The notes: generated from the letters alone by a model not told the origin. A stretch of 24,814 nt of DNA from a virus (IMGVR_UViG_3300033153_000945:1-24814); one strand, 5' to 3'. Positions 1 through 22,073 are shown, counted from the first letter of the stretch. A program made the numbers and translations.

Positions 1-3000
1 ATGTCTCGCTTGACTTCTCAAGCTCTAAGAACTCTATTTGAGTTTTAATATCACTTAACTCTGCAGTAAGCTCAACAACATCAACAGTAGTAGTTTTAGG
101 TTCTTCCTTAGTATCTTCCTTAACCTCTTCTTTCATAGGTTCTTTTTTAACTGGTGTTTCTTCGCGCATCTCAGCGTTCATAGCAGCAACATCAACTTCT
201 TCAGCAGCGTCCTTCTCGACGACAACAGTGTCGTCTACATCCTCAGTCTTCTTAGGAGCCTTAGGCGCCTCTTTCTCCTTAACAGGAGTCGTTGGCTCAG
301 TAGTTTCTTTCTGTGTCTTCTGAGTAGCTTCCTGAGCTTCTGGTGACGTCTTCTTGCCGTTAGCCATATCTTCTAAAGCATCAAGTTCTACCTGTTCTTC
401 TTGCATATCATTAAGCAAACTAGCAATAGTGGCAACTTTAGTATAAGTCTTACCACCATACTCCACTGAAATATTATCTTTAGTAGTATCACTAGCTAAT
501 GCTGCTCTCTTTGCAATCTTACTATTTAACGATGAACCAGCCTCTGGGTATGTCTTATTAGCATTCTCAGCTAAAGTCCAAGGCATCTTATTATCTTTAT
601 CCCAATTATCAAGTGCTTTCTGGAAAGGCTTAATCTTATCACGTTGACTAGCTACAAACTCTAATATACTCTTAACAGCTAAAGGATTCTTCCCACCAGT
701 TGCAATAGTATTAGCCCATTGTATAATACCAGGCTTAGCTCCTCCTCCGAGTAGCTTCTCCTTACGTACTTTAAAGTTAGACTGTAAGCCTTTAACTTTA
801 AGTTCTAACAATGTCTTCTGTGCAGGAGCTAGCCCACTACTATTAAGAGCTTTCTTAACCATATCAAGTGAAGCAGCAGAGCTTCCTATAATATTAGATA
901 TCTTATCAGAAGCAGATATAGCAGGGTCAGCCATTATATCATTCAACCCTTTAGTAGTTGTAGCAGTAGCCAGAGGCATCAGCCTCTGAATCTTAGCAGC
1001 CATAGCAGCTATCTTATTAGGCCCAGCTCCTGAGTCCATTACTTCTTGCATAATCTCAGATAGTTGATTAATAGGAGGAATAACACCACTAGCAATTTGA
1101 CTTGCATAATCAGTAGTATCTCCTTCAGCTTCAAGCTTACTAGCTTGAGTTACCCAGTTATCAATACCAGTTAATGCTTCATTATAAGCAGCATCAAACG
1201 TCTCACTAACGGCCATAAGTTTTTCATTCTTATCAGCACCTAGTTTCTCAGCATCATTAATAGCATCAACTTGACTTATAGTATCATCTTCTTTATTCAT
1301 CTGTGACACAGTCGCAGCATGTGCAACAGCATCAACAGGAGCAGCTACATTACCTTCTTCTTCAAGGTCTCCTCTATTATCAGTAAGAGGATTTAACTCA
1401 GCTTCTCTAATACCCTTAGCAGAAGTCTTTATAGCGTCTTCTTTAATAGGGTTAGCAGCTGCAGTAGCTCTAGCTGTATCAGAATTTCCTGTTACAGCGT
1501 CTTTAGCCTTAGTAGCAGCTTTCTTAAGTTTCTCAGCAGATGTTCCTAGTCCACCAGTAATAGTAGATACACCAGCACCTACAGAACCAGTGAAACCACC
1601 GGCTGCACCACCGGCAATTTGTGCTTTATACATCTCATCGAAGTCAAAACCTTTATCCTTAGCAGTGCCGTATTCTCTATTGAAGTAATCAAGAGCATAC
1701 TGTGCGCCCTCTTGAGAAGCCTCCTCCCCAATATTCAGTCCAACAGTTCCAAGCTTCTTAGCCACTTCTTTACCAAATGCTACTTGTTTATTCTTAGGAA
1801 CACTTTTAAGTAGTTTACCTATCATTTCTGCAGTAGCTGATTTACCTTTAACAGCTGACATAAACGGGATACGTTCTAGTCCGACTTTAGTAGCATCAAA
1901 AGCCGCCATTCTAGCTATCTCAGTAGCGCTAGGCTCTTTACCCTCATTATTCTTTTTATAAGTTTCAATGGAATCATTTGTCTCAGAAGCTATCATAGCA
2001 GCGAAACCTAGACCAGTAGCAGCAGTAACCATATAAGCTAATGATTGTGCAAATACATCAGGACCTGCTTTAGCAGCCTCATATATACCAGTAAAGTAGT
2101 TGCCTTCTTTAAAGTTCTTAAGAGAGCTTTCTACTAACTTCTCGGATGGTTCTCTATTATACCCAGTAGTCTCATCAGCCCATTTAGATTCTTTATACTC
2201 ATCAAAGAATGTACTAGCACGCTTGATATCATCAGGAGTACCGTAGTCTTCAAACCCTAGAGCTTGAGCAGCTTTACCAACTACGTTGGCAGTTGCAGTA
2301 GCAGCTGCATCAGCAATACCTGCAGCAGTAGTTAAAGCCCCAGCTCCGGCACCACTAGCAACATTACCTAGGTAAGAGCCTTCAAGGGCATCAGTAGTAG
2401 TTCCGCCGCGAATAATATTAAGGAAATCCTCTTCAGTCTTCGGACGAGCTTGGTAACCTTTTATATCAGATGCTTTAATATTAGCATTAGGATCTTTAGC
2501 GTGTGTAGCTTTAATCTGTTCCCATGCTTTACTTTTACTAGGCATTGGCTCAGCCTTAAGGGCCTCAGTAATATTAGATGTACGTTTCATATCAAACTGG
2601 TCATTCCATAAAGGAGCATCATTAACAGTATATTCAGAAGTACCAGCTTTAAATCTAGCATCATTTATATCATAAGCTTTCTTATTTAGAAGCGCATCAC
2701 TACCTGCAGACCTAGCAGATACTTGTCCAGCATGTGTATGAATATATTTTTCTAAATCCTCAGCAGCGCCTGTACGCATATAAATAACTGCACCATCAGG
2801 GTCTAAAGGATTTATACCTTCAGGACCAGGAGTACCATCATACCCTAGAGCAGCTCCACCAGTAGTAGGATTTACCTCACCCTTCTTAGCTCTATACTTA
2901 CTAAGATACGGGTTATAACTACGTTTATCAAGGTACCTAGCGACCATAGGAGCCTCAGCACCATACTTATCCCACATCTCTTGTTTTAAGTCAACTCTAG

Positions 3001-4051
3001 CTACTCCAAATTTTCTAGCAGTACCTTGGTTATTACTGCCTGAGTATACAGAGCTTACTTCATCATTAGGTACAAGCTTTTTAGTAACGTTACCATTACT
3101 ATCAGTAGCATGTGTATAAAACTTCCCAGTAGCATTATCTCTAGTTAATTGATTAGCACTTATTTTATTACCAACTTGTTCTTGGAAATCAACTGGTAAT
3201 TCGTAGTGAAGCATTTCTCCAGTAGACTTAGTGCCAGTACTGCCTTCAGCCGCTTTCTTGGCAAAGCTAGTATTAATAATTGCATCCATTACCTTGGCAC
3301 CAGCAACAGTAGCGTAGTTACCTAGTTTATTTTTCTTAGCATTATCTACTAACTTCATCTGAGCTGCATGTCCTTTAGTAGTAGAATCACCAGGAGCTGC
3401 ATACCCAGACTCTATAACACGTTTAGCGTATTCTTTATTATCTGCCATAAACCTACCGAAGTGTCCTTCTTTAGGTGTTAAGAAATTATAACTTGCATCT
3501 CTACCAGTATCAGGATTTGCTAAGTTATCTCTTTCAGCAAACCCTACAGCTTCATCACCAGTTCTATAGATATCAAACGCAGTAGGAGCATAGTCTTCAT
3601 CAATAAGACCTTGCTTCCTATAATCAGTAACCATAGCAGCAAGATCTTGTCCACTATCAGCGGCTATCTTATATGCGTCTGCTTGCCCAGAAGCCTCAGC
3701 ATATGCCTGTTCCTTTGTAAGCTCAGGGTGCATATAGGCATACTGTTTAAACATTTTTGTACGTTCATTATGGAGGTCACTTTCATGATATGTTTCAGGA
3801 GTATCTATTCCAAGTATCCTTATTAGGTTACTACTATCAGCATCATCATAAGCATCAGCTGCTAACGCATCAGCCATTTTCAATTGCTTAGAAGCTGTAC
3901 GTTCTGCTAACTTACGTTTTCTAGATGCATATGAAGGCTTAGTAAGGGATGTATTTATATTAAGTATATCGTTGAAGTTGCCTAGACCTGCACTAGGTGT
4001 CGTAGTAGAGGGCTGCGCATACTGTGCTGAGAGTTCTTGGAATGTTGGCAT
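1..4051 (-). CDS. Giant internal/ejection virion protein, C-terminus outside window
   Basis: I translated an open frame of 1350 codons from the ATG at 4051 to the window edge with no stop, so the C-terminus is missing. A Shine-Dalgarno AAGGA lies 6 bases before the ATG. The protein is rich in Ala, Lys, Asp and Thr. Glycine/alanine-rich hydrophobic stretches lie near residues 550-590, 670-695 and 810-835, and a charged Lys/Glu/Pro-rich linker starts near 1230. Residues about 66-90 contain IRILGIDTPET, which resembles the strand-loop of staphylococcal-nuclease-like domains. It is the last of three virion-type genes (170, 635 and over 1350 residues). That order and size pattern resembles T7 gp14-gp15-gp16, the proteins ejected with the DNA. 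The role as an ejection protein is inferred from size, composition and position; no transglycosylase domain was recognised. Confidence 0.8.
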   Translation of the reverse strand, partial: MPTFQELSAQYAQPSTTTPSAGLGNFNDILNINTSLTKPSYASRKRKLAERTASKQLKMADALAADAYDDADSSNLIRILGIDTPETYHESDLHNERTKMFKQYAYMHPELTKEQAYAEASGQADAYKIAADSGQDLAAMVTDYRKQGLIDEDYAPTAFDIYRTGDEAVGFAERDNLANPDTGRDASYNFLTPKEGHFGRFMADNKEYAKRVIESGYAAPGDSTTKGHAAQMKLVDNAKKNKLGNYATVAGAKVMDAIINTSFAKKAAEGSTGTKSTGEMLHYELPVDFQEQVGNKISANQLTRDNATGKFYTHATDSNGNVTKKLVPNDEVSSVYSGSNNQGTARKFGVARVDLKQEMWDKYGAEAPMVARYLDKRSYNPYLSKYRAKKGEVNPTTGGAALGYDGTPGPEGINPLDPDGAVIYMRTGAAEDLEKYIHTHAGQVSARSAGSDALLNKKAYDINDARFKAGTSEYTVNDAPLWNDQFDMKRTSNITEALKAEPMPSKSKAWEQIKATHAKDPNANIKASDIKGYQARPKTEEDFLNIIRGGTTTDALEGSYLGNVASGAGAGALTTAAGIADAAATATANVVGKAAQALGFEDYGTPDDIKRASTFFDEYKESKWADETTGYNREPSEKLVESSLKNFKEGNYFTGIYEAAKAGPDVFAQSLAYMVTAATGLGFAAMIASETNDSIETYKKNNEGKEPSATEIARMAAFDATKVGLERIPFMSAVKGKSATAEMIGKLLKSVPKNKQVAFGKEVAKKLGTVGLNIGEEASQEGAQYALDYFNREYGTAKDKGFDFDEMYKAQIAGGAAGGFTGSVGAGVSTITGGLGTSAEKLKKAATKAKDAVTGNSDTARATAAANPIKEDAIKTSAKGIREAELNPLTDNRGDLEEEGNVAAPVDAVAHAATVSQMNKEDDTISQVDAINDAEKLGADKNEKLMAVSETFDAAYNEALTGIDNWVTQASKLEAEGDTTDYASQIASGVIPPINQLSEIMQEVMDSGAGPNKIAAMAAKIQRLMPLATATTTKGLNDIMADPAISASDKISNIIGSSAASLDMVKKALNSSGLAPAQKTLLELKVKGLQSNFKVRKEKLLGGGAKPGIIQWANTIATGGKNPLAVKSILEFVASQRDKIKPFQKALDNWDKDNKMPWTLAENANKTYPEAGSSLNSKIAKRAALASDTTKDNISVEYGGKTYTKVATIASLLNDMQEEQVELDALEDMANGKKTSPEAQEATQKTQKETTEPTTPVKEKEAPKAPKKTEDVDDTVVVEKDAAEEVDVAAMNAEMREETPVKKEPMKEEVKEDTKEEPKTTTVDVVELTAELSDIKTQIEFLELEKSSET

Positions 4052-4093: not shown

Positions 4094-6001
4094 TTAACGT
4101 ATATTACTTATACTTGGATTAGGGGTTGTAACTAGTCCTGCTTTCTCTAATAACTCTCGCATTTTAGTATCTATAGCATCGTTAGATAACTTAGGATACT
4201 GCTCTTTAAGAGCTACTCTAGTAGCGTTCTCCCCATCTGCAACCATTACATCAAGTATCTTAGCATCTGGTTTAGACAAAGATTCTTTAGCTCTAGTTCT
4301 AGCAGCTTTTTGTTGGGTAGAGTCCCCTGTAAAGAATGCTCTTCCCTCATCAGTTGTCATATACTCTTTAGGACTACTTCTGAAGAAATTACCCACAGCT
4401 GTACCTGCATTATCTAAACCAGTTAATGCATCACTGATAAATCCTCCTACTGCCTGAGTTCCCTCACCTAAACCTGCAGCGCCATATAAGAGTCTATTAC
4501 CTAGCTGTGTAACACCTCTCTCAAAAGGAGAAATATTAGCATTCTCAGCAGCTTTAAAGTTCGCTGTAGCCTTATCACGTACAGTATCAAACTTGTTAAC
4601 CGGTATAGCTGTGCCACCACTAGCTTTTTTAATAGCTTCTATCTGCGCCGCATGTTCAGGAGAGCCAGGTTTGAATATACTGGCTTGATTAACTTTAGGT
4701 GTAATAGTAGGAGTACCACCTTGCACTGTACCTGTAGTAACAGACGTACTAGGAATATCAAACTTATCTATCTTAGTAGAAACTCTGGCACCTTCTTTAC
4801 CTGCTTTACCATAAAAGTCACTAATTACTTTACTAGCTAGTGCACCTTCATTGCCAGTTGCGCCACCAGTTGTCCCAAAAGTAGCCAGGTACCTTTCCCC
4901 AGCTTTACCCTTCTGCGTTATAAGCTGATCACGTTTAGCAGCAAACTCAGACTGTATAGCTTTTAACCCATCATAACTTTTACCTCCGCCAGCTCTTTTA
5001 GCAGCAAGTTTAGCAAGAGTATCTTCGAAGCCTTTTAGTTGTACTTCAGAATCTTTAGCAGTCCATGACTCTTCTGCCCCAGAAGAGTTAAGCATTGCCG
5101 CAGCAAAGAAATCATCTGGGTGAATAACTCCTTTATCAGCAAGTTCCTTGGCTTTAGCTATTAAATCCCCACCACCAAGTGCGTTAGGTCCCCAATCAGT
5201 ATTGGGAAAATTAGATTTAAGATCCATAACAAGTTTACTGAATCCAGAAGCGTTATTACCGTAAGAGCCTTTACCCTTACCAGCGCCTTTAGAGCTTTTC
5301 TTTGCAGCTACTAATTGCTTATCTAATGTATCTATTTTATTATCTATAAGCTCTTTAGCTATATCAAATCTAGCTTTACTAACTTCTTTATTAGGGCCAG
5401 CAGTTTGTTGTAATGAAGCATATGCTTTTGCATTAGCTATAGCAGTTGCTGGAGATGCTCCTGCACGAATAGCATTCTCTGCCAAACGTTTAGTATAATC
5501 TTGTGTATTTATAATATCAGTATTCTGCCCAGCAGCTATTACTGCATCACTAAGTGTTTTACTAGAAGCACTCTGATCTAATGGTCCACTGTCTAATCTG
5601 TTAAAACCGCTAGGATCTTTGGCATACAAAGCTTGCTGAGTAGGTGATAAGTCACTTCCATAAGCTTTAGTAAACTCTTCAGGGTTAGCTTCGTAAGCAG
5701 CACTAATTGACCTAGCTAATGTCTCATCCATAGTATTAGCAGCGGTATCAGTTATAGCTTTATCACTAGCTAACTTAGCTTGATAAGTATCTGCAGCCCT
5801 GCCCTCTTGTGCTTGTTGAATCCCAAGTAAAGCCTCAGCTCTAGTATTAGCAACAGTTTGTTGCTCTAGTCTAGCTTTCTCCCTAGCTTCAGCAGCTAGT
5901 CTGTCTTGGATTCCTCCAACACCAGATGTAAAGCCAGCTATCCCTTTTTGAGCAGAACCACCGAAGTTAGCTCTAATATCTCTCCATTGTGGTTGTGCCA
6001 T
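4094..6001 (-). CDS. Probable internal virion (ejection) protein, 635 residues
   Basis: This is a long, mostly helical, Ala/Lys/Gly-rich protein with no signal peptide and no recognised enzymatic motif. A charged, Gln-rich coiled-coil-like stretch lies at about residues 30-80, and a Gly/Lys/Ser-rich linker near 240-250. The start at 6001 follows an AGGA-type ribosome binding site (ATAGGATAAATAATG) and lies 3 bases after the end of the 170-residue gene. It is the middle member of the three-gene set that resembles T7 gp14-gp15-gp16 in order. I infer that it is carried in the virion and enters the host with the DNA. The family is not recognised with certainty. Confidence 0.65.
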   Translation of the reverse strand: MAQPQWRDIRANFGGSAQKGIAGFTSGVGGIQDRLAAEAREKARLEQQTVANTRAEALLGIQQAQEGRAADTYQAKLASDKAITDTAANTMDETLARSISAAYEANPEEFTKAYGSDLSPTQQALYAKDPSGFNRLDSGPLDQSASSKTLSDAVIAAGQNTDIINTQDYTKRLAENAIRAGASPATAIANAKAYASLQQTAGPNKEVSKARFDIAKELIDNKIDTLDKQLVAAKKSSKGAGKGKGSYGNNASGFSKLVMDLKSNFPNTDWGPNALGGGDLIAKAKELADKGVIHPDDFFAAAMLNSSGAEESWTAKDSEVQLKGFEDTLAKLAAKRAGGGKSYDGLKAIQSEFAAKRDQLITQKGKAGERYLATFGTTGGATGNEGALASKVISDFYGKAGKEGARVSTKIDKFDIPSTSVTTGTVQGGTPTITPKVNQASIFKPGSPEHAAQIEAIKKASGGTAIPVNKFDTVRDKATANFKAAENANISPFERGVTQLGNRLLYGAAGLGEGTQAVGGFISDALTGLDNAGTAVGNFFRSSPKEYMTTDEGRAFFTGDSTQQKAARTRAKESLSKPDAKILDVMVADGENATRVALKEQYPKLSNDAIDTKMRELLEKAGLVTTPNPSISNIR

Positions 6002-6004
6002 TAT

Positions 6005-6517
6005 TTATCCTATCTTAGAAGTATCTACAAATTTCTTAGCAGTAGCTGCTTTAGAAGCTGCAATTTGCTCTGGAGTCATTGCTCCACCACCAAGTGCTAG
6101 GCCAACATCAGCTGCATTTTGTAGCTGAGTATTGATTAGTTGCCCTTGATTAGCAAGATTTCTATTAGCAAGTGCTTTCTCAAAACCAAACTGGTCTTCT
6201 GCAAGTCCTAGTCCTTTATACGCTGTATATGCACTACCAAGTGCTCCAAGCCCTTGTGCTACGCCAAGTGCATCACCTAGACCAAATCCTCCACCAGCAC
6301 CTTGTGCTCCATACCCTTCATTGACAGTAGACTGCAAACCACCAGTATTCTTTAGATTAGTAAATGACTGATTTACACCAGCCTGCTCACCGGGTGTAAG
6401 CTTCACGAATGCTGCCTGGTCTAGTCCCTGGCTACCTAAAAACTGGCCAAAGTCAGTATTATTATCCCCAAATCCAAATAGCCCCAAGCCTCTAGATGTT
6501 AATGTATTCTCTGCCAT
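6005..6517 (-). CDS. Small internal virion protein, gp14-like position
   Basis: This 170-residue protein has a Gly/Ala-rich centre (about residues 66-105). It is followed by EDQFGFEKALANRNLANQ (about 107-124), a pattern I know from short internal virion proteins of many podovirus-like phages. The start at 6517 follows CAGGAG 7 bases upstream. It is the first gene after the promoter at 6548-6575 and is followed directly by the 635-residue gene. The hydrophobic glycine-rich middle could insert in a membrane during DNA ejection, as proposed for T7 gp14, but that is inference from position and composition. Confidence 0.65.
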   Translation of the reverse strand: MAENTLTSRGLGLFGFGDNNTDFGQFLGSQGLDQAAFVKLTPGEQAGVNQSFTNLKNTGGLQSTVNEGYGAQGAGGGFGLGDALGVAQGLGALGSAYTAYKGLGLAEDQFGFEKALANRNLANQGQLINTQLQNAADVGLALGGGAMTPEQIAASKAATAKKFVDTSKIG

Positions 6518-6587: not shown

Positions 6588-9062
6588 TTACTTAACCCCA
6601 ATCTGAAAATACTTATCATAATCATAAATATTAGTATATGTTGCAGACCCTTTTAGTAAGTCCCAATCAAATTGCATTTCCTTAGCCTTGTAGTACACAA
6701 GGTCTGGCCCTTCTACATATCCTGTAGCAGGAGAAACAGTGGCTAACTCAAGTACTTTCTGTGTACTTATACCTCCACCTAAGGATTCCATTACTTTATC
6801 ATACTCCTCTGATCTATCTTCATAGACATTTGCGAATGCCTCACTCTCCCCTGCAAGCTTAGCAAGTTGGTACTCTGTATGGATATTTGAGAATTGTTTT
6901 ACAGTACTTCCCCATGTAGCTATAGATGTTTGAGAGAACTCAGTAACAGTATCTAATAAATCAGAAGCTGAGAGAAACCCCCCACTATTAGCAAAGGAGC
7001 TGGCCTGTAGTCCTGCAACTGTAGCAGCTATTACAGCTACTGCTCTAATCCATGGATTATCAGTAGCAGCAAATACCATCTCTAATGCAAAGGATATAGC
7101 AAAGGCTGATACTAGCTTAATTGCTATAGATGTTGCTACGGAACTAAGTGTTCCACCAGATGCGATAGAAGTTGCAATTATAATTACTACCGCTAAAATC
7201 TGCATAAATGGTGCAAAGGCTGCTGTCTCATACCAATCTAAATGTGTAACTTCTGCAGAGTACACAGAAAACCTTAGAGACTTAATCATAATTTCTGTTT
7301 GCTCTAAAGGGGTCATAATCTTTACCGAGTTAAACGATACAGGTATAGCGAAGTTAGGGTTATCAAGATCTGCAGAATATGCTCCCCATAATCCTTCTCT
7401 ATCAATATACGTAATACTTTGCATAGTTTCTAAGGTTATCTCTATATAATACTCTTCTACAGCCTGATGCCTCATAGTTAATGTTTTACCTGTTACAGTA
7501 TGCTCATAATGTCCTACAGGTCCCAGTATACCCGCATGTGCAATTCTTGATTGATTAGTCCAAACCATTGCAGTATTAAGTGGTAACTCTTCAAATGTAG
7601 CTATATGCTTTGTAACACCGTTATCAGAGGATTGTTTAAGATTAGGATCATCAAATATATAATCAAACATATAATAAAGAAACTTAGAGACTGTTACTCC
7701 TGTTTCTAGAGGTGATAATCCAAAATGTACAAACGCATCTTCTATACTATCAATATCTGGATTTTCACTTAGTTTATCTGTTATTTCCTCAATATCTACT
7801 CCAAGAAAATCTAGCATAACTTTACCATCTTGGTATCTAGGACTTTCCTTATCTTCATTAGTATTTACTGTAGCATTCCTAAGAGTAACTACAGGTAACA
7901 TCTCTAACTCCGTTAAGTACACATTATCCGTAGAAAGTTCTGGGTATAGTCCTGTAGACGAAGCATACAACCAATATAACCATTCTCCTGGCACAGTAGT
8001 ATAATATGTAACTACATAAAATTGCTCAGGTACAAATGCGTCTACATATAATATAGTTGAATCATATAGAACATCATACTCAGTAGTAGGTACAGCAACA
8101 GCATCTTCACTATCAGTCTCAGTACCAGTTGGAATTAATTCGTCATCATTACTAAGTTCTATTGTATCATCACTTATTACACCACTTTTAGTTCCTACTA
8201 CCTCAGTTCTCTCTGTAACAGTAGTATTCTTATTATCATAGTCAACTAATGTCCAATAATTTGTATCTGTCGGCAGATTTCCTAATGAATCTGCGATACA
8301 TATATAAGCATCTACAGTAGTTCCATTATCGTACATAACGTGATCATCTGTATAATATTGAGTAGCTGCATTATAAGTAGTATACTCTTCAATATATGGT
8401 GTAATTGTAATAGTTGTTGTTGTTGTAACAGTAGTAGTAACATCTTCATAAGATATTATAGCTACATCGTACCTGTCAAAAGTATAATTATAGTCTATAG
8501 AACTGACACTGTATATATGTGTTAAATATATTAATTCATTATTCCATGGAGTATAATCATAAGTATTTTGTAGCTCATAGCTAACATATTCAGTCTTGCT
8601 AGGAGTTTGTAGGTCAGATGTAATTATAGTCACATCAAGCCCTAAGCTATCATCAATAACATCTTTTACGGCATCATCATCCACAACTCTTGCTTGAAAA
8701 CTACTAGTAGGAAGCCCATCAACTGCTTTATTCTTACCATAGCTAAAATACTCTTGAAACCTTGCTCTAGATACGCTAGATACACGCATCATTTTTTCTA
8801 TTACGGTTGCATCTGGATCTGCTTGATGATCTAAAGCCAACTGTGCTAGCATATCAGCTAGCATACTATCATCAGCTATAATACGCTGTGAGCTAACTTC
8901 AGTTGATACTATATCTTCATCTTCAATACCAAACCATCCCATTATAATCTCTAGCAAAGGTTCTGTAATAGTGTCCCAAAAAGCTATAGCAGCTATTACT
9001 ACAATAGCAGCTACAGCATAATATGTTACTATTACATATACAGCAACTGCTACAAAGGGCAT
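6588..9062 (-). CDS. 824-residue membrane-type phage protein downstream of the acyl cassette
   Basis: The family is not recognised. Residues 3-29 form a strongly hydrophobic Val/Ala/Ile helix, likely a membrane span. A second hydrophobic, Ala/Ile/Gly-rich region covers about residues 615-690 and could hold two or three more spans. Between them the protein is rich in Tyr, Thr, Asp and Val, with a Thr repeat near 213-220, suggesting beta structure. The start at 9062 lies inside the end of the acyltransferase gene (13-base overlap), with AGGT 8 bases upstream. The next genes encode internal virion proteins after a separate promoter. It may be a virion component that meets the host membrane, or the target of the acyl cassette. 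Both are inference; its membrane-type ends and the gene coupling are what the sequence shows. Confidence 0.6.
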   Translation of the reverse strand: MPFVAVAVYVIVTYYAVAAIVVIAAIAFWDTITEPLLEIIMGWFGIEDEDIVSTEVSSQRIIADDSMLADMLAQLALDHQADPDATVIEKMMRVSSVSRARFQEYFSYGKNKAVDGLPTSSFQARVVDDDAVKDVIDDSLGLDVTIITSDLQTPSKTEYVSYELQNTYDYTPWNNELIYLTHIYSVSSIDYNYTFDRYDVAIISYEDVTTTVTTTTTITITPYIEEYTTYNAATQYYTDDHVMYDNGTTVDAYICIADSLGNLPTDTNYWTLVDYDNKNTTVTERTEVVGTKSGVISDDTIELSNDDELIPTGTETDSEDAVAVPTTEYDVLYDSTILYVDAFVPEQFYVVTYYTTVPGEWLYWLYASSTGLYPELSTDNVYLTELEMLPVVTLRNATVNTNEDKESPRYQDGKVMLDFLGVDIEEITDKLSENPDIDSIEDAFVHFGLSPLETGVTVSKFLYYMFDYIFDDPNLKQSSDNGVTKHIATFEELPLNTAMVWTNQSRIAHAGILGPVGHYEHTVTGKTLTMRHQAVEEYYIEITLETMQSITYIDREGLWGAYSADLDNPNFAIPVSFNSVKIMTPLEQTEIMIKSLRFSVYSAEVTHLDWYETAAFAPFMQILAVVIIIATSIASGGTLSSVATSIAIKLVSAFAISFALEMVFAATDNPWIRAVAVIAATVAGLQASSFANSGGFLSASDLLDTVTEFSQTSIATWGSTVKQFSNIHTEYQLAKLAGESEAFANVYEDRSEEYDKVMESLGGGISTQKVLELATVSPATGYVEGPDLVYYKAKEMQFDWDLLKGSATYTNIYDYDKYFQIGVK

Positions 9063-9541
9063 GTTTGTATACCTAACATATTGAATAATCTAGCAAACTT
9101 TTCCTGAAGGGGTTTAATATGTATAGATATTGGTGTGTTGTAGTTATGATTATTTCTAATACTACTACCAATAGCTAATGACTTAAAATCCCCAAGAGTT
9201 CTTTCATATACATCTACTAATATTTTATGTTTAGGGAATGTCTCAAATGCGGTTTTCATTAATAACATCATACTAATTGTATCACCACTTCCCCATATAC
9301 TAGTACCTACACCGTTACGTATTTCTACCAGGTTATACATAAATCCTAATAACACACCTTCACTTTCTATTTTATAAGCATATCCCGTGGTTATACTCTC
9401 AAACATTCTCTCCTTATACCCATCTACACTACCGCCATTAGCCAGAGCTTCAACTTTTAAATAATGTACTGCTATATCAGCTTCTACACATTTATATACA
9501 TCATACTTCTTATTTTGTTTTGTGTAGTATACAGCTTCCAT
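9050..9541 (-). CDS. Probable GNAT-fold acyltransferase
   Basis: This 163-residue protein has the size and general pattern of a single GNAT domain. An N-terminal helical part is followed by a strand pair near residues 52-73 (TGYAYKIESEGVLLGFMYNL) of the kind seen at GNAT strands 2-3. A mixed helix-strand region around residues 90-115 comes next (MMLLMKTAF...HKILVDVYE). No classical Q/RxxGxG/A acetyl-CoA loop is clear, so the donor may not be acetyl-CoA. The start at 9541 lies inside the end of the ketosynthase gene (32-base overlap), with AGGGA 6 bases before the ATG. With an ACP and a ketosynthase immediately upstream, an acyl-ACP-dependent transferase comparable in size to HlyC is a reasonable reading. 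The family call rests on pattern only. Confidence 0.45.
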   Translation of the reverse strand: MEAVYYTKQNKKYDVYKCVEADIAVHYLKVEALANGGSVDGYKERMFESITTGYAYKIESEGVLLGFMYNLVEIRNGVGTSIWGSGDTISMMLLMKTAFETFPKHKILVDVYERTLGDFKSLAIGSSIRNNHNYNTPISIHIKPLQEKFARLFNMLGIQTCPL

Positions 9542-10373
9542 AGAAATTCCCTAATCCTGACGCTACGCAAAGCACGTCATCTTTAATACTATCATCATCG
9601 ATAGCCATACAAAGCTCTAGAAGAGCACTTACACCTTGTGAATGTCCTACATCCTTCTTGTAATAAACAACCTCTCTACCACTAATAATGGAAGCCTCAG
9701 CAGCATTATTAGAAACAGTATTAGTCCCATGAGGCTTAACTGTACCACACTCACTATCAACCAAAGCATAACCATCAATACTGGTATGAAAAGGGTTCCT
9801 ATTATAGCTATAAGCCCACTTAGTGTCTGTAACTTCAAGGCTACTTTTATCCTTACTAAATCTTACAATGGCTATACCATCGCTAGGCATAACATCAATA
9901 CCATGTTCTTTAAATATACGAATAGTATTAAAACTAGTACGCTCTTCAGCAATTACTATAACTTCTTCACACACACCTTCATCTAACAGCTTTTGAGCTT
10001 CATAGATACTATGCATACTACTAGCGCATGTATTACTATTTATATTAGCATACACAACTAGCTCATTATTTTTCATATTACCAATCCATTGATGCATACT
10101 ATATGCAGTAGACTCTTTAATAACTCTAGAAGATTTATTATAAGAAACAGTTCCAACATACCTTGGATTAGTAGATGTAAGATCTCTACTTTCAGATTGA
10201 TGAATACCAAATCCTCCTGCATATAGTACAGCAGTAGGTTTAGTTAATGTAATAGTGGGAAACTTCTTCATGAATTGTGAAGTAGTAAAATCTTCTCTAT
10301 TAATGCCTTCTATCTCTAGATGGTCTACTGCATCTACATTAGCAGTTATATAGTCGTATTGTTTGATAAACAT
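9510..10373 (-). CDS. Compact beta-ketoacyl-ACP synthase (ketosynthase)
   Basis: Ketosynthases join a malonyl unit to an acyl chain carried on ACP. The catalytic set is visible in order: Cys116 in NTCASS (nucleophile elbow), His215 in VKPHGTNT, and His244 in KKDVGHSQGVSAL. Lys239 lies five residues before His244, as Lys335 does before His340 in FabF. At 287 residues it is much shorter than the usual about 410, but all active-site segments are kept, so it is compact rather than broken. The start at 10373 overlaps the end of the ACP gene by 28 bases and the acyltransferase starts inside its end, so the three are translationally coupled. No ketoreductase, dehydratase or enoyl reductase is present; it would depend on host fatty acid synthesis. 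It could condense chains or act only as a transacylase. Confidence 0.8.
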   Translation of the reverse strand: MFIKQYDYITANVDAVDHLEIEGINREDFTTSQFMKKFPTITLTKPTAVLYAGGFGIHQSESRDLTSTNPRYVGTVSYNKSSRVIKESTAYSMHQWIGNMKNNELVVYANINSNTCASSMHSIYEAQKLLDEGVCEEVIVIAEERTSFNTIRIFKEHGIDVMPSDGIAIVRFSKDKSSLEVTDTKWAYSYNRNPFHTSIDGYALVDSECGTVKPHGTNTVSNNAAEASIISGREVVYYKKDVGHSQGVSALLELCMAIDDDSIKDDVLCVASGLGNFYGSCILHKTK

Positions 10374-10600
10374 TTAGTAATCATTTCTTCAACAGAGATA
10401 GTAGGAAAATCAATAGTAGAGAATGGATCAACTTCTACAGGTATATCTGAAAAATATCCATACTTCTCATCTAACTCCAAAAATAAAACAGTATACCCAA
10501 AACTATCTAGCTCAGAGTCTATTAACTTAGAGGCAATAGTAACTCTACTGCCTTTCTCTTCTCTGATAGTGGTATTAATAAAATCTAATACCTCTTCCAT
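10346..10600 (-). CDS. Acyl carrier protein
   Basis: At 84 residues this is the normal ACP length. The core LIDSELDSFGYTVLFLELDE matches the ACP pattern, with Ser33 in the DS(L/F) motif as the expected phosphopantetheine attachment site, at the start of helix 2. Acidic residues follow, as is usual for docking to partner enzymes. The C-terminal PTISVEEMITKC fits helix 4. The start ATG overlaps the stop of the upstream 154-residue gene as TAATG, and the ketosynthase begins inside its 3' end. Activation would need a phosphopantetheinyl transferase, which is not in this window, so host AcpS is the likely source. Confidence 0.85.
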   Translation of the reverse strand: MEEVLDFINTTIREEKGSRVTIASKLIDSELDSFGYTVLFLELDEKYGYFSDIPVEVDPFSTIDFPTISVEEMITKCLSNNTTI

Positions 10601-11064
10601 TATGCTTCTCCGATTGGATCCGTTGTAACCGTAATATCCAGACTATCCATAGCGTCTAACATAACACTGTCAATAACATTAACTTTAATAGTATCAGGGA
10701 TTGCATTAGCATCCTGTGCAACTGAATAAGCAACTGACCAACTATCAAGTGTTTGTTTTAGTAACTTCTGCTTAGCATCATCATCAAAGCCTTTAGCTTG
10801 TCTAATAGCAAGAGCAGTCTGTGCTTCTGTAAGTGCAACTTTCTCTTCTGTAATAGCTTCTTGCATAGCAAAGCCTATACCGTTCTGCATAGCAGCAGGT
10901 ATCATAGCAGTATATACTTGACCAGCCTCTGCTTGAGTAATCTCATTAGCAACAATAGCTGCATTAACATGCGCTCTAGCTAGTGTAAGTAAATCACCTA
11001 TATAACCACCATCTTCAATAGTAGCAGTACCAATCACATCACTCCATAGTATATCAACAGCCAT
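10600..11064 (-). CDS. Small helical virion-type protein
   Basis: This 154-residue, mostly helical protein has the pattern ITQAEAGQVYTAMIPAAM...KGFDDDAKQKLLKQTLDSWSVAYS. I associate this with short structural proteins that follow capsid genes in several podovirus-like phages. A good ribosome binding site (AAAGGA) lies 6-7 bases before the ATG at 11064. It sits after the endonuclease VII-like gene, and its stop overlaps the ACP start. The role is not established; a minor virion or head-tail joining protein is possible. Confidence 0.5.
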   Translation of the reverse strand: MAVDILWSDVIGTATIEDGGYIGDLLTLARAHVNAAIVANEITQAEAGQVYTAMIPAAMQNGIGFAMQEAITEEKVALTEAQTALAIRQAKGFDDDAKQKLLKQTLDSWSVAYSVAQDANAIPDTIKVNVIDSVMLDAMDSLDITVTTDPIGEA

Positions 11065-11117: not shown

Positions 11118-11756
11118 TTATGCTTGTGTTAAATAATTTAGAGCTTTTTCTAATAGCTCTAAATCATCTTTAAACCCTCCAAGGGCAACATTACACTGGT
11201 GACAGAGTAGCCCTCTAACATCCCCAGTTAGGTGACAGTGATCAACTACTAAATGTTCTCTGAATGCATTTCTCTCACTGTAAGCCTTACATTTACATAT
11301 CTTACAACAGTTATGCTGTTCAGTCAGCATTATATCGTAATCTTTTAACGTTAAGTTATAGGTCTTTTTTAAGTGCCATTTACGTTGACTCTTTCTATAC
11401 TGGGCTTCTTGCTCCTCAGTCATAGGCGGTCTAGCGTTTTTATTTTTAATCGTTTTGGTAACGGCACATTGTTTACACATATTAGCTCTACCAAATCGTC
11501 CCCCGTTTGCTCGCTGAAATATTTCTAAGTCATCTTTAGTGAAGGCTTCAACACCACACTTATTACAAGTACGGAGAGGGTCCGACAACTTAAGAGGTAC
11601 ATTTGGCACAAAGGACTCTGTTCTATATTTCTTTGTATGACAAAGCTTACATGTATTAGCTCTACCATAGGGTGCTCTATTGTCTTTCATAAATTCATCA
11701 AGATCATCCCTAGTAAAGGCCTCTTTCCCACATTTACAAGTTCTTATAGCTTCCAT
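11118..11756 (-). CDS. Endonuclease VII-like HNH nuclease with duplicated zinc ribbons
   Basis: The C-terminal half matches recombination endonuclease VII. It has HNCCKICKC at about 148-155, then VVDHCHLTGDVRGLLCHQCN (about 170-189) with Asp172, His173, His175 and Asn189, and zinc-binding cysteines at 150/153 and 185/188. The N-terminal half holds two copies of a Cys-rich module: Cys7-x-Cys9...Cys36-xx-Cys39 and Cys64-xx-Cys67...Cys94-xx-Cys97. Each has the pattern EAFT(R/K)DDLxxF...(Y/F)GRANxCKxC. The duplicated modules are probably DNA-binding. T4 gp49 resolves branched DNA before packaging. This copy lies alone between structural genes, next to other free-standing nucleases, so it may instead be a homing endonuclease. 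The sequence cannot separate the two roles. Confidence 0.75.
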   Translation of the reverse strand: MEAIRTCKCGKEAFTRDDLDEFMKDNRAPYGRANTCKLCHTKKYRTESFVPNVPLKLSDPLRTCNKCGVEAFTKDDLEIFQRANGGRFGRANMCKQCAVTKTIKNKNARPPMTEEQEAQYRKSQRKWHLKKTYNLTLKDYDIMLTEQHNCCKICKCKAYSERNAFREHLVVDHCHLTGDVRGLLCHQCNVALGGFKDDLELLEKALNYLTQA

Positions 11757-13897: not shown

Positions 13898-15289
13898 CTA
13901 GCCTCTACCGCCTGATGCTAAGAAATCCATAAGATTATCTAGCTCTGCGCCTTCTACTTTTAATGGGTCGAATTTAGCCTTAGCTTTCGCTTTAGGTTTC
14001 TTTCTACTCATTGAAGCAGCTTTCTTACGCTGTTGAGTTAACTTAGCTTCCTGAGTAGCAGCCTTTAACTTATACTCCTCCTCTTTTCTAGATTGTTCTA
14101 TTTTAGCTTTTTCGTCATTGACGGTAGCTTTTTTAACAACCTTTTTAGGAGCAGTTGTCTCTTGTTTTTCAACAGGAGCAGGCTTACTAGCTTGTTCAGT
14201 TTGTAACTCTTTAACCGCCGTACGATACTTAGAAATTGAATTCATAGCACCGAATGACCCATTGTAATCTAATCTACTCATCTCAAGTATCTTATCCTGT
14301 ACAGCGTCATACGCTCCAGTCTCGATATGATTAAGTAAATCATTACGGACAGCATCATTGGCAACAAATTCCTGGAAGCTTTCAGCATCCCATTCTTTAC
14401 CAACTACCTGTCTAACGCTATCTTCAATACCTGAAGCCTTAGCACGTTCCATTGTATCTTCTATGATAATAGATTCTTGACTAGCTACATTGGATTTACC
14501 ATCGTAGTTAATCTTCTCCATATCAAGATCCAACGGATCAATGCCTAATGACTGCAAGTGTTGCTTAATAGCTTCCTTGTCTCCATCGACAAGGTTCATT
14601 GCTAAGTCAAACTTAGTCTGATCGTCTAGCATACCTCTCTCTTTAAGAGGGGCCATAAATGGACGATACTGCTTAAATCCTGCCATCTTCTCAGAAAATC
14701 CACCAGCCATTTGCTGGGACTGAATAATCTTTTGTGGATCAGCAAAACCTTTTACTTTTTTTCCGTTAACAACGAACTCTGTATTGACTACAGTCTCATA
14801 GAATTTCTTATAATCGATTTCATCTGTGTCTGAACCTTCACCGTCGCTAGTGTCCTCTGTGTCTGTGTCGTCTTCTGATTCCTCGTCAGCATCTTCTTCC
14901 TTAGACTTATCAGCTTCGTCAGCCTCTTTGTCTTCGTCTTCAATATCACCATCTTCATCATCTGAATTATCTTCATCTACTAGAGAGTCTTCTTCCTCAT
15001 CTTCATCTTCGTCTTCAGAGTCTTTATCAAGCTCACCGTCGCCAGCTTCATCAAGTTCCTCGTCATCCTCAGACTCATCATCTTGGTCTGTGTCCTCTTG
15101 GTCTTCGTTGTCTTCTTCGTCAAAGTCTTCCGCAGTATCTGCATCTTCTTCAACACCTTCATCCTCTTCTTCTGTATCAGCTTCATCAGCCTCTACATCA
15201 TCAGATTCCTCTTCAAACGTTCCGTGTAGCATTGCATCAAAAGTATCTTGATTAAATTCTACTTCTTCGTCTTTAATAGTGTCACTCAT
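13898..15289 (-). CDS. Acidic scaffold-like capsid assembly protein
   Basis: This 463-residue protein has an extremely acidic N-terminal third (about residues 25-158 are mostly Asp, Glu and Ser), a helical middle, and a Lys/Ala-rich basic tail (about 370-445). Position directly before the major capsid gene, acidic helical character and a basic C-terminus fit a scaffolding protein, which guides shell assembly and then leaves. The basic end would contact the capsid or DNA. Its ATG overlaps the stop of the 130-residue gene as TAATG. Scaffolds diverge quickly, so the call rests on context and composition. Confidence 0.7.
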   Translation of the reverse strand: MSDTIKDEEVEFNQDTFDAMLHGTFEEESDDVEADEADTEEEDEGVEEDADTAEDFDEEDNEDQEDTDQDDESEDDEELDEAGDGELDKDSEDEDEDEEEDSLVDEDNSDDEDGDIEDEDKEADEADKSKEEDADEESEDDTDTEDTSDGEGSDTDEIDYKKFYETVVNTEFVVNGKKVKGFADPQKIIQSQQMAGGFSEKMAGFKQYRPFMAPLKERGMLDDQTKFDLAMNLVDGDKEAIKQHLQSLGIDPLDLDMEKINYDGKSNVASQESIIIEDTMERAKASGIEDSVRQVVGKEWDAESFQEFVANDAVRNDLLNHIETGAYDAVQDKILEMSRLDYNGSFGAMNSISKYRTAVKELQTEQASKPAPVEKQETTAPKKVVKKATVNDEKAKIEQSRKEEEYKLKAATQEAKLTQQRKKAASMSRKKPKAKAKAKFDPLKVEGAELDNLMDFLASGGRG

Positions 15290-16644: not shown

Positions 16645-17307
16645 TTATCCTTCCTCTTGGTTTAATAAGTACCAATCGTTATGGTGCTTTCGTTTGTAGT
16701 TGACTACCATCATAACTTTATCTAAAATTAAATTATAAGTAGTAACAAGTTCCTTCGGAGTACAATATATAACTCCATGTGTATCATGTGTAAAAGCGGT
16801 AACAGTAGTTGTCTTTTTAAAGTTATAAGGAGTATCTCCTACAACACTATATAAACACCAGCCAGCATAGCTATCTCTATTTTGAGTTATAACGCGGTAT
16901 ACCCCTCTAACTGTTATATCAAACTCAGTAGCTAGCTCTAAGGCAGTTACCTCTCTAATCCCATGTTCGAAGTGTACAAACTTATGAGTTATAGCATCAG
17001 TGCCAAAATAAGTGCCTCCCCCTCCCATATCAAGATTATACCCATTATCAAAAGTATCTTCCTTTTTAATATAATAACGTTCCAACTGATTAGCTTCTTC
17101 AATAGTATCTATACTATCAGCTAATATTTCATGCTCCCAGTTAGTACTGCCGTATAAAGAAATAGCCCTATGAAAGTGTAGCTGACTGCCTCTATTGGCA
17201 GTTTGCACATGTTCATTCCAGCGTACTTCCATAGTACGTTTAGTTTGACCTATATAGCTTTTACCAGATTTCATACTAGTGTGCTTATATATTACCCATT
17301 GTTCCAT
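16645..17307 (-). CDS. GIY-YIG homing endonuclease
   Basis: The N-terminal nuclease domain (about 1-98) has the paired strands VIYKHT (5-10) and SYIGQT (17-22) in place of GIY and YIG. It also has Arg29 in the following helix, the metal-binding Glu76 in NQLERYYI, and Asn91 in NGYNLDMGGG. The C-terminal part holds two tandem modules, about 110-152 and 172-214. They share the pattern F-x-H...HG...T-x-EL...Y/F...V...W-x-L, likely DNA-recognition repeats of the intron-endonuclease type. The gene begins 3 bases after the portal stop and its final codons carry the next gene's ribosome binding site. It is a selfish or site-specific nuclease inserted between portal and head genes. Confidence 0.85.
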   Translation of the reverse strand: MEQWVIYKHTSMKSGKSYIGQTKRTMEVRWNEHVQTANRGSQLHFHRAISLYGSTNWEHEILADSIDTIEEANQLERYYIKKEDTFDNGYNLDMGGGGTYFGTDAITHKFVHFEHGIREVTALELATEFDITVRGVYRVITQNRDSYAGWCLYSVVGDTPYNFKKTTTVTAFTHDTHGVIYCTPKELVTTYNLILDKVMMVVNYKRKHHNDWYLLNQEEG

Positions 17308-19584: not shown

Positions 19585-21405
19585 TTACGTAATACTAATA
19601 GACGCAATATCAAAAGATAAGCTTTCAAATGTCACATCTATTGCTACATTTGAGCGAATTCTTACTTTATGAACATTACCAGCTATCTCTTGCATAGGCC
19701 AACTAAAACTTAACGAATCCTCTGTAGCACTTCTTGGTATATTCTTAGCATAAGTATAGTGAATTGTTGCACCAGTTACATCATATAATTCAAGGTATAG
19801 CGTTCTAGTATTAGTTGAAGATATAAAAGATATCCCAGCAGTAAAATGAACTCTGTAGTCTCCATCATTAGGAAGAGTTATTTCACCAGTAGCCTCATTA
19901 ACTGTTGTAACAACTTCTCTTGTTAATGTATAATCAACAATATCCTGAGTTGTTACATCAACGTTGTACAATGGTGTGTCCTGCCCTTTCAAGCCACCAA
20001 GAACATTAGGGGTAACCTCGTTCACTTTAACATCTACTCTAAACTTACCAACAGATGCATCAGATACAAGTACACCTCCAACCTCAGTTCTAATTGCAGG
20101 AGCAGTTTTTGTGTATGTTCCAGCAATAGTATCACTAAGATAATATGGGCCACCAGCAGCTAATATACTAGTATCAAAATCAACAATACCACTAATAGCA
20201 ATTGCAGTACTTTCTCCATTTGCTACTTCTAATGTAGTAACACCAACAACGTTTGCATTTTCAAAACTATCAGCCTGTGCCTTAACTATCTGAGGAATAC
20301 CACCAGATACACCTTGTACCCTTACAGCCATACCTTCTTCTATTAAGGCACCTGAATTATTAATAACGTGCATATGTTGTCCATGGCCAGGACTAACTTC
20401 AATACCCTCAAATGGCCCCATTATATTAAATGTTCCAGTATTTCCGTCATAATAAAATTTACCTTCCTCGTAAGAAGGAGCAACGAAAACCGGATTAAGC
20501 TTAGCTTCATCAGGAGGAGTTTGTAATATTAATATATCATCTTCATTAGTAGTTACTCTAGCACTTAGTTCTTTTTCAGTCCAACTAGTCCAATCAGTAC
20601 CATCACCAGCTATAGATGTTCTTATATACTCTATACCGCTTGTTCCAGTATACCACTGTTCCATACCAGTTGCATCATCTATATATTTAACATATAATAT
20701 CCCTGATGTTTCTGCAGCAGGTATATTTAAACCAGTTACATCATCATATATACCAGATACTAGTATAGTATTAAGATTAGTAGTAGTCTCGTCTAGTCTT
20801 ATTGTAAGCTCTTTATTAATAGTAGCTATAGCAGCCTCAGCAGCAGCACGACTAGCTTCAATAGAAGTAATTCTTACACTCTCCGGAACTTCTGCCCATG
20901 CATCCCATTCACCTACACCTACTTTACTTCTTATATACTCTTTAGTATCAGAAGTTCTACTAAGTAGCTGTGTAACTAGATCCGTACCACCTGATACTTC
21001 TTCTATAATAACTAATGTAGCACTAGTTAAACTAAGAGGAAGATTATGGTCATCAGTAACGTTATACACACCAGCTATATAAATAACATCATCATCGATG
21101 TCTTCAGTTCCAGCAGGTATAACGATTTGACCTCTAATAGTATTAACACTTATAGCAGTCTCGTTAACTTGTCTACTAGCTTCTACTTCATCAATAGCTG
21201 CAGCTACATCAGTACCTACTATATCTTCCGTAGAAGTAAATGTAGTATCAGCAGCATCTACATTAGCCCACTCGACATCATAGTCAGTATCGGAAAGCTT
21301 CATTAAAACTTCTTTTGTTATACCGCCTGGATGTGTACTAGCTCCTGGAATACCAGCAATGCCCTGGGGACCAGCTGATATGACTTCTACTACTGTTATA
21401 GACAT
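19585..21405 (-). CDS. Tail fibre with collagen-like start and pyocin-knob domains
   Basis: This 606-residue protein begins with a short collagen-like stretch (GPQGIAGIPG, 12-21) followed by VLMKLSDTDYDVEW, a common phage fibre linker. Two related domains at about 97-173 and 205-278 have the pyocin-knob pattern: N-terminal 'GxYxVT', a hydrophobic strand, then 'EYIRS...WDAWAE' or 'EYIRT...WTSWTE'. A beta-rich middle follows. The last about 130 residues look like a jelly-roll head (TLYLELYDVTG...NVHKVRIRS), probably the receptor-binding tip. Its ribosome binding site AAAGGA lies within the last codons of the upstream HNH gene, which it overlaps by 10 bases. It would recognise the host surface. 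Confidence 0.8.
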   Translation of the reverse strand: MSITVVEVISAGPQGIAGIPGASTHPGGITKEVLMKLSDTDYDVEWANVDAADTTFTSTEDIVGTDVAAAIDEVEASRQVNETAISVNTIRGQIVIPAGTEDIDDDVIYIAGVYNVTDDHNLPLSLTSATLVIIEEVSGGTDLVTQLLSRTSDTKEYIRSKVGVGEWDAWAEVPESVRITSIEASRAAAEAAIATINKELTIRLDETTTNLNTILVSGIYDDVTGLNIPAAETSGILYVKYIDDATGMEQWYTGTSGIEYIRTSIAGDGTDWTSWTEKELSARVTTNEDDILILQTPPDEAKLNPVFVAPSYEEGKFYYDGNTGTFNIMGPFEGIEVSPGHGQHMHVINNSGALIEEGMAVRVQGVSGGIPQIVKAQADSFENANVVGVTTLEVANGESTAIAISGIVDFDTSILAAGGPYYLSDTIAGTYTKTAPAIRTEVGGVLVSDASVGKFRVDVKVNEVTPNVLGGLKGQDTPLYNVDVTTQDIVDYTLTREVVTTVNEATGEITLPNDGDYRVHFTAGISFISSTNTRTLYLELYDVTGATIHYTYAKNIPRSATEDSLSFSWPMQEIAGNVHKVRIRSNVAIDVTFESLSFDIASISIT

Positions 21406-22073
21406 AATTTATTTCCTTTGATTAAGTTATCCTTAGCAGATAATATCTGCAAGTTACTAGGAGTGTGAAAACCACATACAGTGTCACCTTGTAAAGGTAT
21501 TATATGATCTACATGATATTGAGTACCTTCTAATGAATTAAGCCAAAATGCTAACTTGTAAATCTCTTTAAAATACTTAGTATCCCAAGCATCTGTCCAG
21601 GCTGGAGTTGCTTTTAATTTATTAGCATGTCGTCTAGCCCACGCTTCATTTAGTTTATCCCTGTTAGCTTTTCTATACTTTCGAGCACGCTCTCTATACT
21701 TATCAGGATTTAATATACGATCAAGTCGTTTCCTATCAGCTGTAGCTTCCTTATTATCTGCATATCTAGCTCTTTCTTTAGCGTTAATTTTCTCTTTATT
21801 AACTTTTCTATAGCGGGCACCATTGGAGAGACATTTAGCTTTATTAGAGGCTCTATATGCTTTACTACGTTCTCTCTGTTTATCTATATTAGCATGGTAT
21901 CTGGCCCGCTCATTAGCGTTAAGTGTGCCTCTATCTTTATCTCTTAATTCAGCTGTTTTAATGTTTTTACACTTCTTACACTGCCCTCTTAGTCCATCGG
22001 TTGAGGATTTTCTGACACCAAACATATTAGTATCTTTACTGGTATTACAGGTACTACATATTTTATAACTCAT
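21396..22073 (-). CDS. HNH homing endonuclease
   Basis: This 225-residue protein has an N-terminal zinc ribbon (Cys6-xx-Cys9...Cys32-xx-Cys35), a long basic central region (about 50-150), and a C-terminal HNH domain YHVDHIIPLQG...SNLQIL...DN (His187, Asp189, His190, Asn207, Asn216). The centre repeats an 'ARYRxxNxxKxxxxxRxYR' pattern about three times and probably tracks along DNA. Its ATG overlaps the stop of the adaptor gene as TAATG, and its 3' end overlaps the fibre start while supplying the fibre's ribosome binding site. It is a free-standing nuclease inserted between tail genes. Confidence 0.85.
   Translation of the reverse strand: MSYKICSTCNTSKDTNMFGVRKSSTDGLRGQCKKCKNIKTAELRDKDRGTLNANERARYHANIDKQRERSKAYRASNKAKCLSNGARYRKVNKEKINAKERARYADNKEATADRKRLDRILNPDKYRERARKYRKANRDKLNEAWARRHANKLKATPAWTDAWDTKYFKEIYKLAFWLNSLEGTQYHVDHIIPLQGDTVCGFHTPSNLQILSAKDNLIKGNKLCL

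Follow-up and report, generated by a model that had tools for sequence, protein, structure and literature searches.

A conserved acyl carrier protein, ketosynthase and GNAT-fold gene trio in the structural operon of N4-like and P22-like podoviruses, and its possible role in protein acylation

The DNA analyzed here (IMGVR_UViG_3300033153_000945, 24,814 bases, hereafter the window) is a fragment of an N4-like (Schitoviridae-type) phage, an uncultured bacterial virus; its structural genes, those for the major head protein and the portal among them, lie on the minus strand. Within this structural operon, three consecutive genes, referred to below as the trio, encode an acyl carrier protein (ACP), a FabF-type ketosynthase (KS) and a small protein with a predicted GNAT fold. 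A first-pass annotation made from the sequence alone had described such an overlapping cassette, with a GNAT-like acyltransferase as its third member. Its setting was borne out by gene calls and PHROG-matched neighbors, and the identities of the three products by profiles of their relatives together with structure prediction. The junctions are exactly as that annotation had given them: the ACP and KS genes overlap by 28 nt, the KS and third genes by 32 nt, and the third gene and the gp53-like gene downstream by 13 nt; the gp54-like gene upstream shares a further 1 nt with the ACP gene. Start codons of the KS (MFIK..) and of the third protein (MEAV..) are backed by the matching starts of relatives. 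Identification of all three proteins rests on relatives and structure rather than on the single sequences of the window, as single-sequence profile searches returned no match for the ACP or the third protein and only a match below the cut-off for the KS.

Relatives of the KS matched the Pfam family Ketoacyl-synt_C (PF02801) above the cut-off (5.9e-5 to 1.6e-16), and the KS profile aligned with the catalytic core of Escherichia coli FabF around its Cys, His, Lys and His residues (E 2.8e-7), which confirmed the full Cys-His-His-Lys set claimed in the first-pass annotation. Among 87 gathered KS sequences both His residues and the Lys were present in all 87 and the Cys in 86, the exception being a bacterial locus from a metagenome-assembled genome (MAG); every phage KS carries all four residues. 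At 287 aa in the window and mostly 273-383 aa in other phages, these proteins fall short of the full length of FabF-type enzymes (about 400 aa), with the catalytic core retained. A KAS III identity (FabH, Cys-His-Asn triad) was ruled out by His244 at the third position, and on the evidence of its catalytic residues the phage KS is an elongating His/His enzyme of the FabF rather than the FabH type. In a tree with few outgroup and reference sequences and long branches, 46 phage KS clustered together, separate from E. coli FabF and FabH (96/92 support). The placement near host fatty-acid synthesis genes by which an auxiliary metabolic gene of host origin would be recognized was not seen in this sparsely sampled tree.

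For the ACP, an alignment of 21 family sequences showed Asp32-Ser33 to be invariant. The PP-binding family (PF00550) was matched by 8 of these 21 relatives (best 1.8e-4), while the window ACP alone had no Pfam match; searched against the PDB, the family profile recovered carrier proteins, with NodF first at 1.9e-5. With a Ser in a D-S-[LF] motif at the start of helix II and this family profile match, the protein is classed from its sequence as an ACP, and Ser33 is predicted to carry 4'-phosphopantetheine.

The third protein was modeled with AlphaFold from a 20-sequence alignment and showed GNAT topology (pLDDT 88.8, pTM 0.82). All 50 PDB matches listed by Foldseek were acetyltransferases, complexes containing them, or an uncharacterized protein (best 3.8e-5), with modest TM-scores of 0.38-0.57, and the named matches listed in a search of viral structures were mainly of the N-acetyltransferase type. 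The corresponding small protein of P22-like phages was also predicted to have a GNAT fold (pLDDT 93.5), its listed PDB matches including Rv1347c and the acyltransferase domain of NcdE; the link between the two GNAT families is one of modeled fold and gene position only. On this basis the third protein is presumed to act as an N-acyltransferase. It does not fit HlyC, the RTX toxin-activating acyltransferase (no profile match, and no invariant His), and it had no match to the NodA profile. Homology to T7 gp13 or P22 gp14 was likewise negative by profile comparison, which had low power as single sequences were used. Scanning with the alignment of the third protein recovered no loci.

The trio sits between gp54-like and gp53-like genes, just upstream of the ejection cassette (Table 1). 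Since gp54 and gp53 are direct neighbors in N4 and 13 other cultured schitoviruses, the trio is inserted between them. In N4, gp53 is described as the tail plug and gp52 as the channel in the outer membrane; gp51 forms the tunnel across the periplasm, and gp50 is the RNA polymerase that is injected (PMC12633501; for phage DEV, PMC10925440). The gp53 tail plug of schitoviruses lacking the trio (L129-L141; N4, L125:17541-20195, minus strand) mostly has a conserved MGLFS[SG]K-like N-terminus that resembles a lipidation signal, and no acyl system adjoins it in these phages.

Table 1 Genes of the trio and its surroundings in the window
Feature	Position	Strand	Basis
ACP, 84 aa; predicted phosphopantetheine site Ser33 in LDSFG	10346..10600	minus	Invariant Asp-Ser; profile matches of relatives
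FabF-type (KAS I/II) KS, 287 aa; Cys116, His215, Lys239, His244	9510..10373	minus	Profiles of relatives; catalytic residues
GNAT-fold protein, 163 aa; presumed N-acyltransferase	9050..9541	minus	AlphaFold and Foldseek
N4 gp54-like virion protein (phrog_2050); upstream neighbor	10600..11064	minus	PHROG match 7.7e-15; N4 gp54 matches same PHROG
N4 gp53-like tail plug protein (phrog_2220); downstream neighbor, candidate target	6588..9062	minus	PHROG match 1e-37; N4 gp53 in same PHROG
N4 gp52-like ejection protein (outer-membrane channel; phrog_2646); candidate target	6005..6517	minus	PHROG match 1.8e-14; N4 gp52 in same PHROG
Gene in place of N4 gp51 (periplasmic tunnel); candidate target	4094..6001	minus	Position only; no PHROG match
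Start of gene in place of N4 virion RNA polymerase gp50; cut by window end	2..4051	minus	Position and size

Relatives of the KS are encoded on at least 462 viral stretches in one scan, and close relatives occurred in 28 IMG/VR loci from one scan, with further ones from other scans; nearly all close-relative loci retain the order and overlaps of the trio. Once five loci of bacterial or MAG origin that lack the cassette had been removed, clustering at 90% identity of the best-matching loci of a scan gave at least 47 viral or phage-like KS clusters, with an ACP directly upstream in 47/47. A GNAT-type gene lay downstream in 42 of the 45 that were testable, a figure that measures consistency rather than independent discovery because the GNAT profiles were built from members of the same loci. 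The trio was found in both schitoviruses and P22-like podoviruses, with overlapping junctions in each; about 70 of the 80 best loci of one scan were P22-like podovirus contigs, in which an ACP of 93-105 aa and a KS of about 370 aa are followed by a protein of 143-165 aa and then by a long internal-protein-like gene. Purifying selection on the P22-like trio is strong, with median dN/dS values of 0.11 (ACP), 0.038 (KS) and 0.06 (GNAT). The scattering or decay of the genes in related phages that would have spoken against the first-pass annotation was thus mostly not seen, and the trio and its order proved to be kept. The deviating cases are two cultured Alteromonas schitoviruses (R22Y and PT11-V19), which have the ACP and a GNAT-like gene without a KS, one lineage in which the GNAT-like gene lies upstream of the ACP (L016/L104), and a large phage contig considered below.

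Among named phage records the P22-like trio was found in one, a metagenomic phage (MW202545). In this record (L005:7371-8315 of MW202545.1) a full-length relative aligns about 156 bases further upstream of the annotated KS start, which is probably too late, as judged from that alignment. Two loci (L010, L011) represent another phage lineage, which differs in its capsid-like protein and has the same order of ACP, KS and third protein; from this lineage a Sulfurospirillum MAG contig (L121) also came to light, in which only the KS was detected. A P22-like phage trio lies on a Balneolaceae MAG contig (L119, JAGYJQ010000016.1), and this bin is a possible host clue for that P22-like lineage. In the annotation of Bordetella phage BPP-1 and Burkholderia phage BcepC6B, no ACP or KS genes were found.

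A pair of ACP and KS lacking reductases is sufficient to channel fatty-acid synthesis of the host towards a special acyl chain; NodF and NodE divert synthesis in this way, and NodA transfers the chain to an amine. The GNAT fold suits N-acylation from acyl-ACP, as in MbtK, FeeM and OlsB. We propose, with belief and doubt about evenly balanced, that the trio gives the phage an acyl-transfer pathway of its own, in which a target is N-acylated, most likely a neighboring DNA-delivery protein. Ser33 of the phage ACP would be armed by a host phosphopantetheinyl transferase. FabD of the host and the phage KS would then charge this ACP with an acyl chain and elongate (or select) it, with host FabG, dehydratase and enoyl reductase supplying the reductive steps; from the ACP, the GNAT-fold protein would pass the acyl group on to an amine. 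A delivery protein is suggested as the target because the trio lies in the delivery operon, and the most likely candidates are the gp53-like tail plug and the gp52-like or gp51-like ejection proteins, which are encoded in the same operon and would be made simultaneously. The most likely benefit, by analogy with SipB acylated via IacP and with HlyA, would be improved insertion into the host envelope. The sequences themselves show the gene identities, catalytic residues, predicted GNAT fold, order, overlaps, conservation, selection and operon position; from these we infer the phosphopantetheinylation, the chain chemistry, acyl-ACP as the GNAT donor, the target and the benefit, so that the chemistry as a whole is a prediction drawn from sequence and modeled structure. 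That the Alteromonas schitoviruses keep the ACP and GNAT genes without a KS suggests that acyl transfer is the core of the pathway and chain choice optional. More tentatively, with doubt somewhat outweighing belief, podoviruses of at least two unrelated types may use ACP, KS and GNAT proteins of their own to lipidate or otherwise acylate a DNA-ejection or tail plug protein before packaging for better channel insertion.

On this reading the trio would be a dedicated acyl-ACP transfer module of a known sort in an unexpected setting. As in NodF-NodE-NodA, a specialized ACP, a FabF-type KS and an N-acyltransferase (its activity here presumed from the modeled fold) are encoded together, with the rest of fatty-acid synthesis borrowed from the cell; unlike that system, whose target is a chitooligosaccharide, the phage genes lie in a virion operon and the third protein is not matched by NodA. 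The role of the NodE/NodF pair is described in PMC5080398, whose text swaps the two labels. A dedicated ACP inside the operon of an injection machine is also seen for IacP in a type III secretion system (T3SS) locus, where acylation of the SPI-1 translocon promotes membrane insertion and pore formation (PMC5279801); there SipB is S-acylated on Cys, and the available part of the text describes no KS or GNAT partners. HlyC and other RTX acyltransferases share an acyl-ACP donor and Lys N-acylation of a membrane-active protein, which in the case of HlyA activates it (PMC8339906), but they use the canonical ACP of the cell and no dedicated KS. Among phages, gp30 of Alteromonas phage R22Y is an ACP of the same family and operon place as that of the window; it has no KS beside it, it is described as an auxiliary metabolic gene, and its GNAT-like neighbor is not discussed in the available part of that description (PMC11705849). 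MW202545 (Caudoviricetes sp.) has the same order of ACP, KS and GNAT-type genes beside structural genes but is P22-like, with its KS annotated as 3-oxoacyl-ACP synthase and the neighbors as hypothetical proteins. A fabG-acpP-fabF prophage set (PMC8224337) differs from the phage trio. No description of the trio was found in the open-access papers searched (subscription papers lay outside this scope), in line with the first-pass remark that no described system with this layout was known to its author.

Several observations weigh against acylation of a delivery protein by the trio. Neither the third protein nor its relatives matched a Pfam acetyltransferase family, and profile comparison found no similarity between the schitovirus and P22-like GNAT families; for both reasons catalysis by the third protein is not proven. 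In addition, the window copy lacks a Pro-His motif that is frequent among its relatives. In the gp53-like proteins, no Lys or Cys columns were kept in phages with the trio and absent from those without it (a single Thr column was). The protein downstream of the trio has Gly2 in 12/21 schitovirus-type and 8/20 P22-type loci, compared with 7% of other genes, but N4 and 13 trio-less schitoviruses also begin with Met-Gly (one from an internal start), which excludes Gly2 as a trio-specific signature. Among 471 phage records with a portal relative, an ACP was found in only two phages and a KS in neither, and most cultured schitoviruses manage without the trio. On the large contig mentioned above (128 kb; L020:9657-10852), an ACP and a KS gene overlap by 10 bases with no GNAT gene, lie among non-structural genes and adjoin a clamp-loader-like ATPase. 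Cys is absent from several gp53-like and all gp52-like proteins examined, which makes S-acylation of a conserved Cys, as in SipB, unlikely for these two; the lack of trio-specific Cys columns in gp53-like proteins speaks against it as well. The first-pass annotation is thus partly supported: the identities, order and operon place of the trio are upheld, its use in particle assembly or infection stays a proposal, and neither a target nor a product was identified.

The lack of a protein target signature would fit a trio that makes a small acylated molecule, the GNAT protein joining the acyl group to an amino acid, a polyamine or another amine to give a lipid or signal with an effect, late in infection, on the host or other phages. 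Small amines are often the substrates of GNAT-fold enzymes that draw on acyl-ACP (FeeM/FeeL, OlsB, LuxI, MbtK/MbtL), and Rv1347c (MbtK) and NcdE are among the matches listed for the P22-like protein. A diffusing product, however, need not be encoded by genes embedded in and overlapping virion genes, as the trio is in two podovirus lineages, and no further biosynthetic genes adjoin it; we regard this explanation as unlikely, though as the strongest of the alternatives.

The other two explanations are both improbable, to nearly the same degree. Reuse of the ACP, KS and GNAT folds in a structural or chaperone-like capacity, for assembly or as minor components of the virion that perform no acyl chemistry, would agree with the strong divergence of the third protein. 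It would also agree with T7 gp13 and P22 gp14, which are small, occupy the equivalent place in their operons and are annotated as assembly or internal proteins. Such reuse is disfavored because it would not need all catalytic residues to be kept, whereas all four catalytic residues of the KS (Cys, two His, Lys) and the Ser of the ACP are retained in every phage member, and the low dN/dS of the KS also speaks against it. Marginally less probable still is an auxiliary metabolic role, in which the genes would boost host fatty-acid synthesis or membrane adaptation in infection. ACP and FabF-type KS are indeed enzymes of fatty-acid synthesis, one ACP family is classed in PHROGs as auxiliary metabolic, and the authors of the R22Y study propose this role for its ACP (PMC11705849). 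Yet the phage KS, at 270-380 aa, are grouped far from E. coli FabF, they lie in a structural operon, where an ACP always accompanies them and a GNAT-type gene nearly always does, and almost no bacterial genome contigs carry a KS of this type.

The trio bears on the open question of how the ejection proteins of podophages get from the capsid into the membranes of bacteria, and the acylation of a delivery protein proposed here is directly testable in the two cultured Alteromonas phages. Should the target prove to be a virion protein, the trio would be a new kind of phage system, and ACP-KS-GNAT would constitute a class of phage protein modification that is, to our knowledge, undescribed. If an acyl group aids the passage into membranes, phages would share, by convergence, a solution with RTX toxins and the T3SS translocon. 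The trio is also a warning not to assume automatically that a phage ACP is a metabolic helper gene.

No anti-phage defense families were found. Elsewhere in the window, three HNH-like or GIY-YIG-like endonuclease genes lie between structural genes on the minus strand (11118-11756, 16645-17307 and 21396-22073) and, judged from their motifs, are probably homing endonucleases. A minus-strand gene (13898-15289) upstream of the one for the major head protein, where N4 has gp57, encodes a scaffold-like 463-aa protein with a very long, acidic N-terminal half rich in Asp and Glu.
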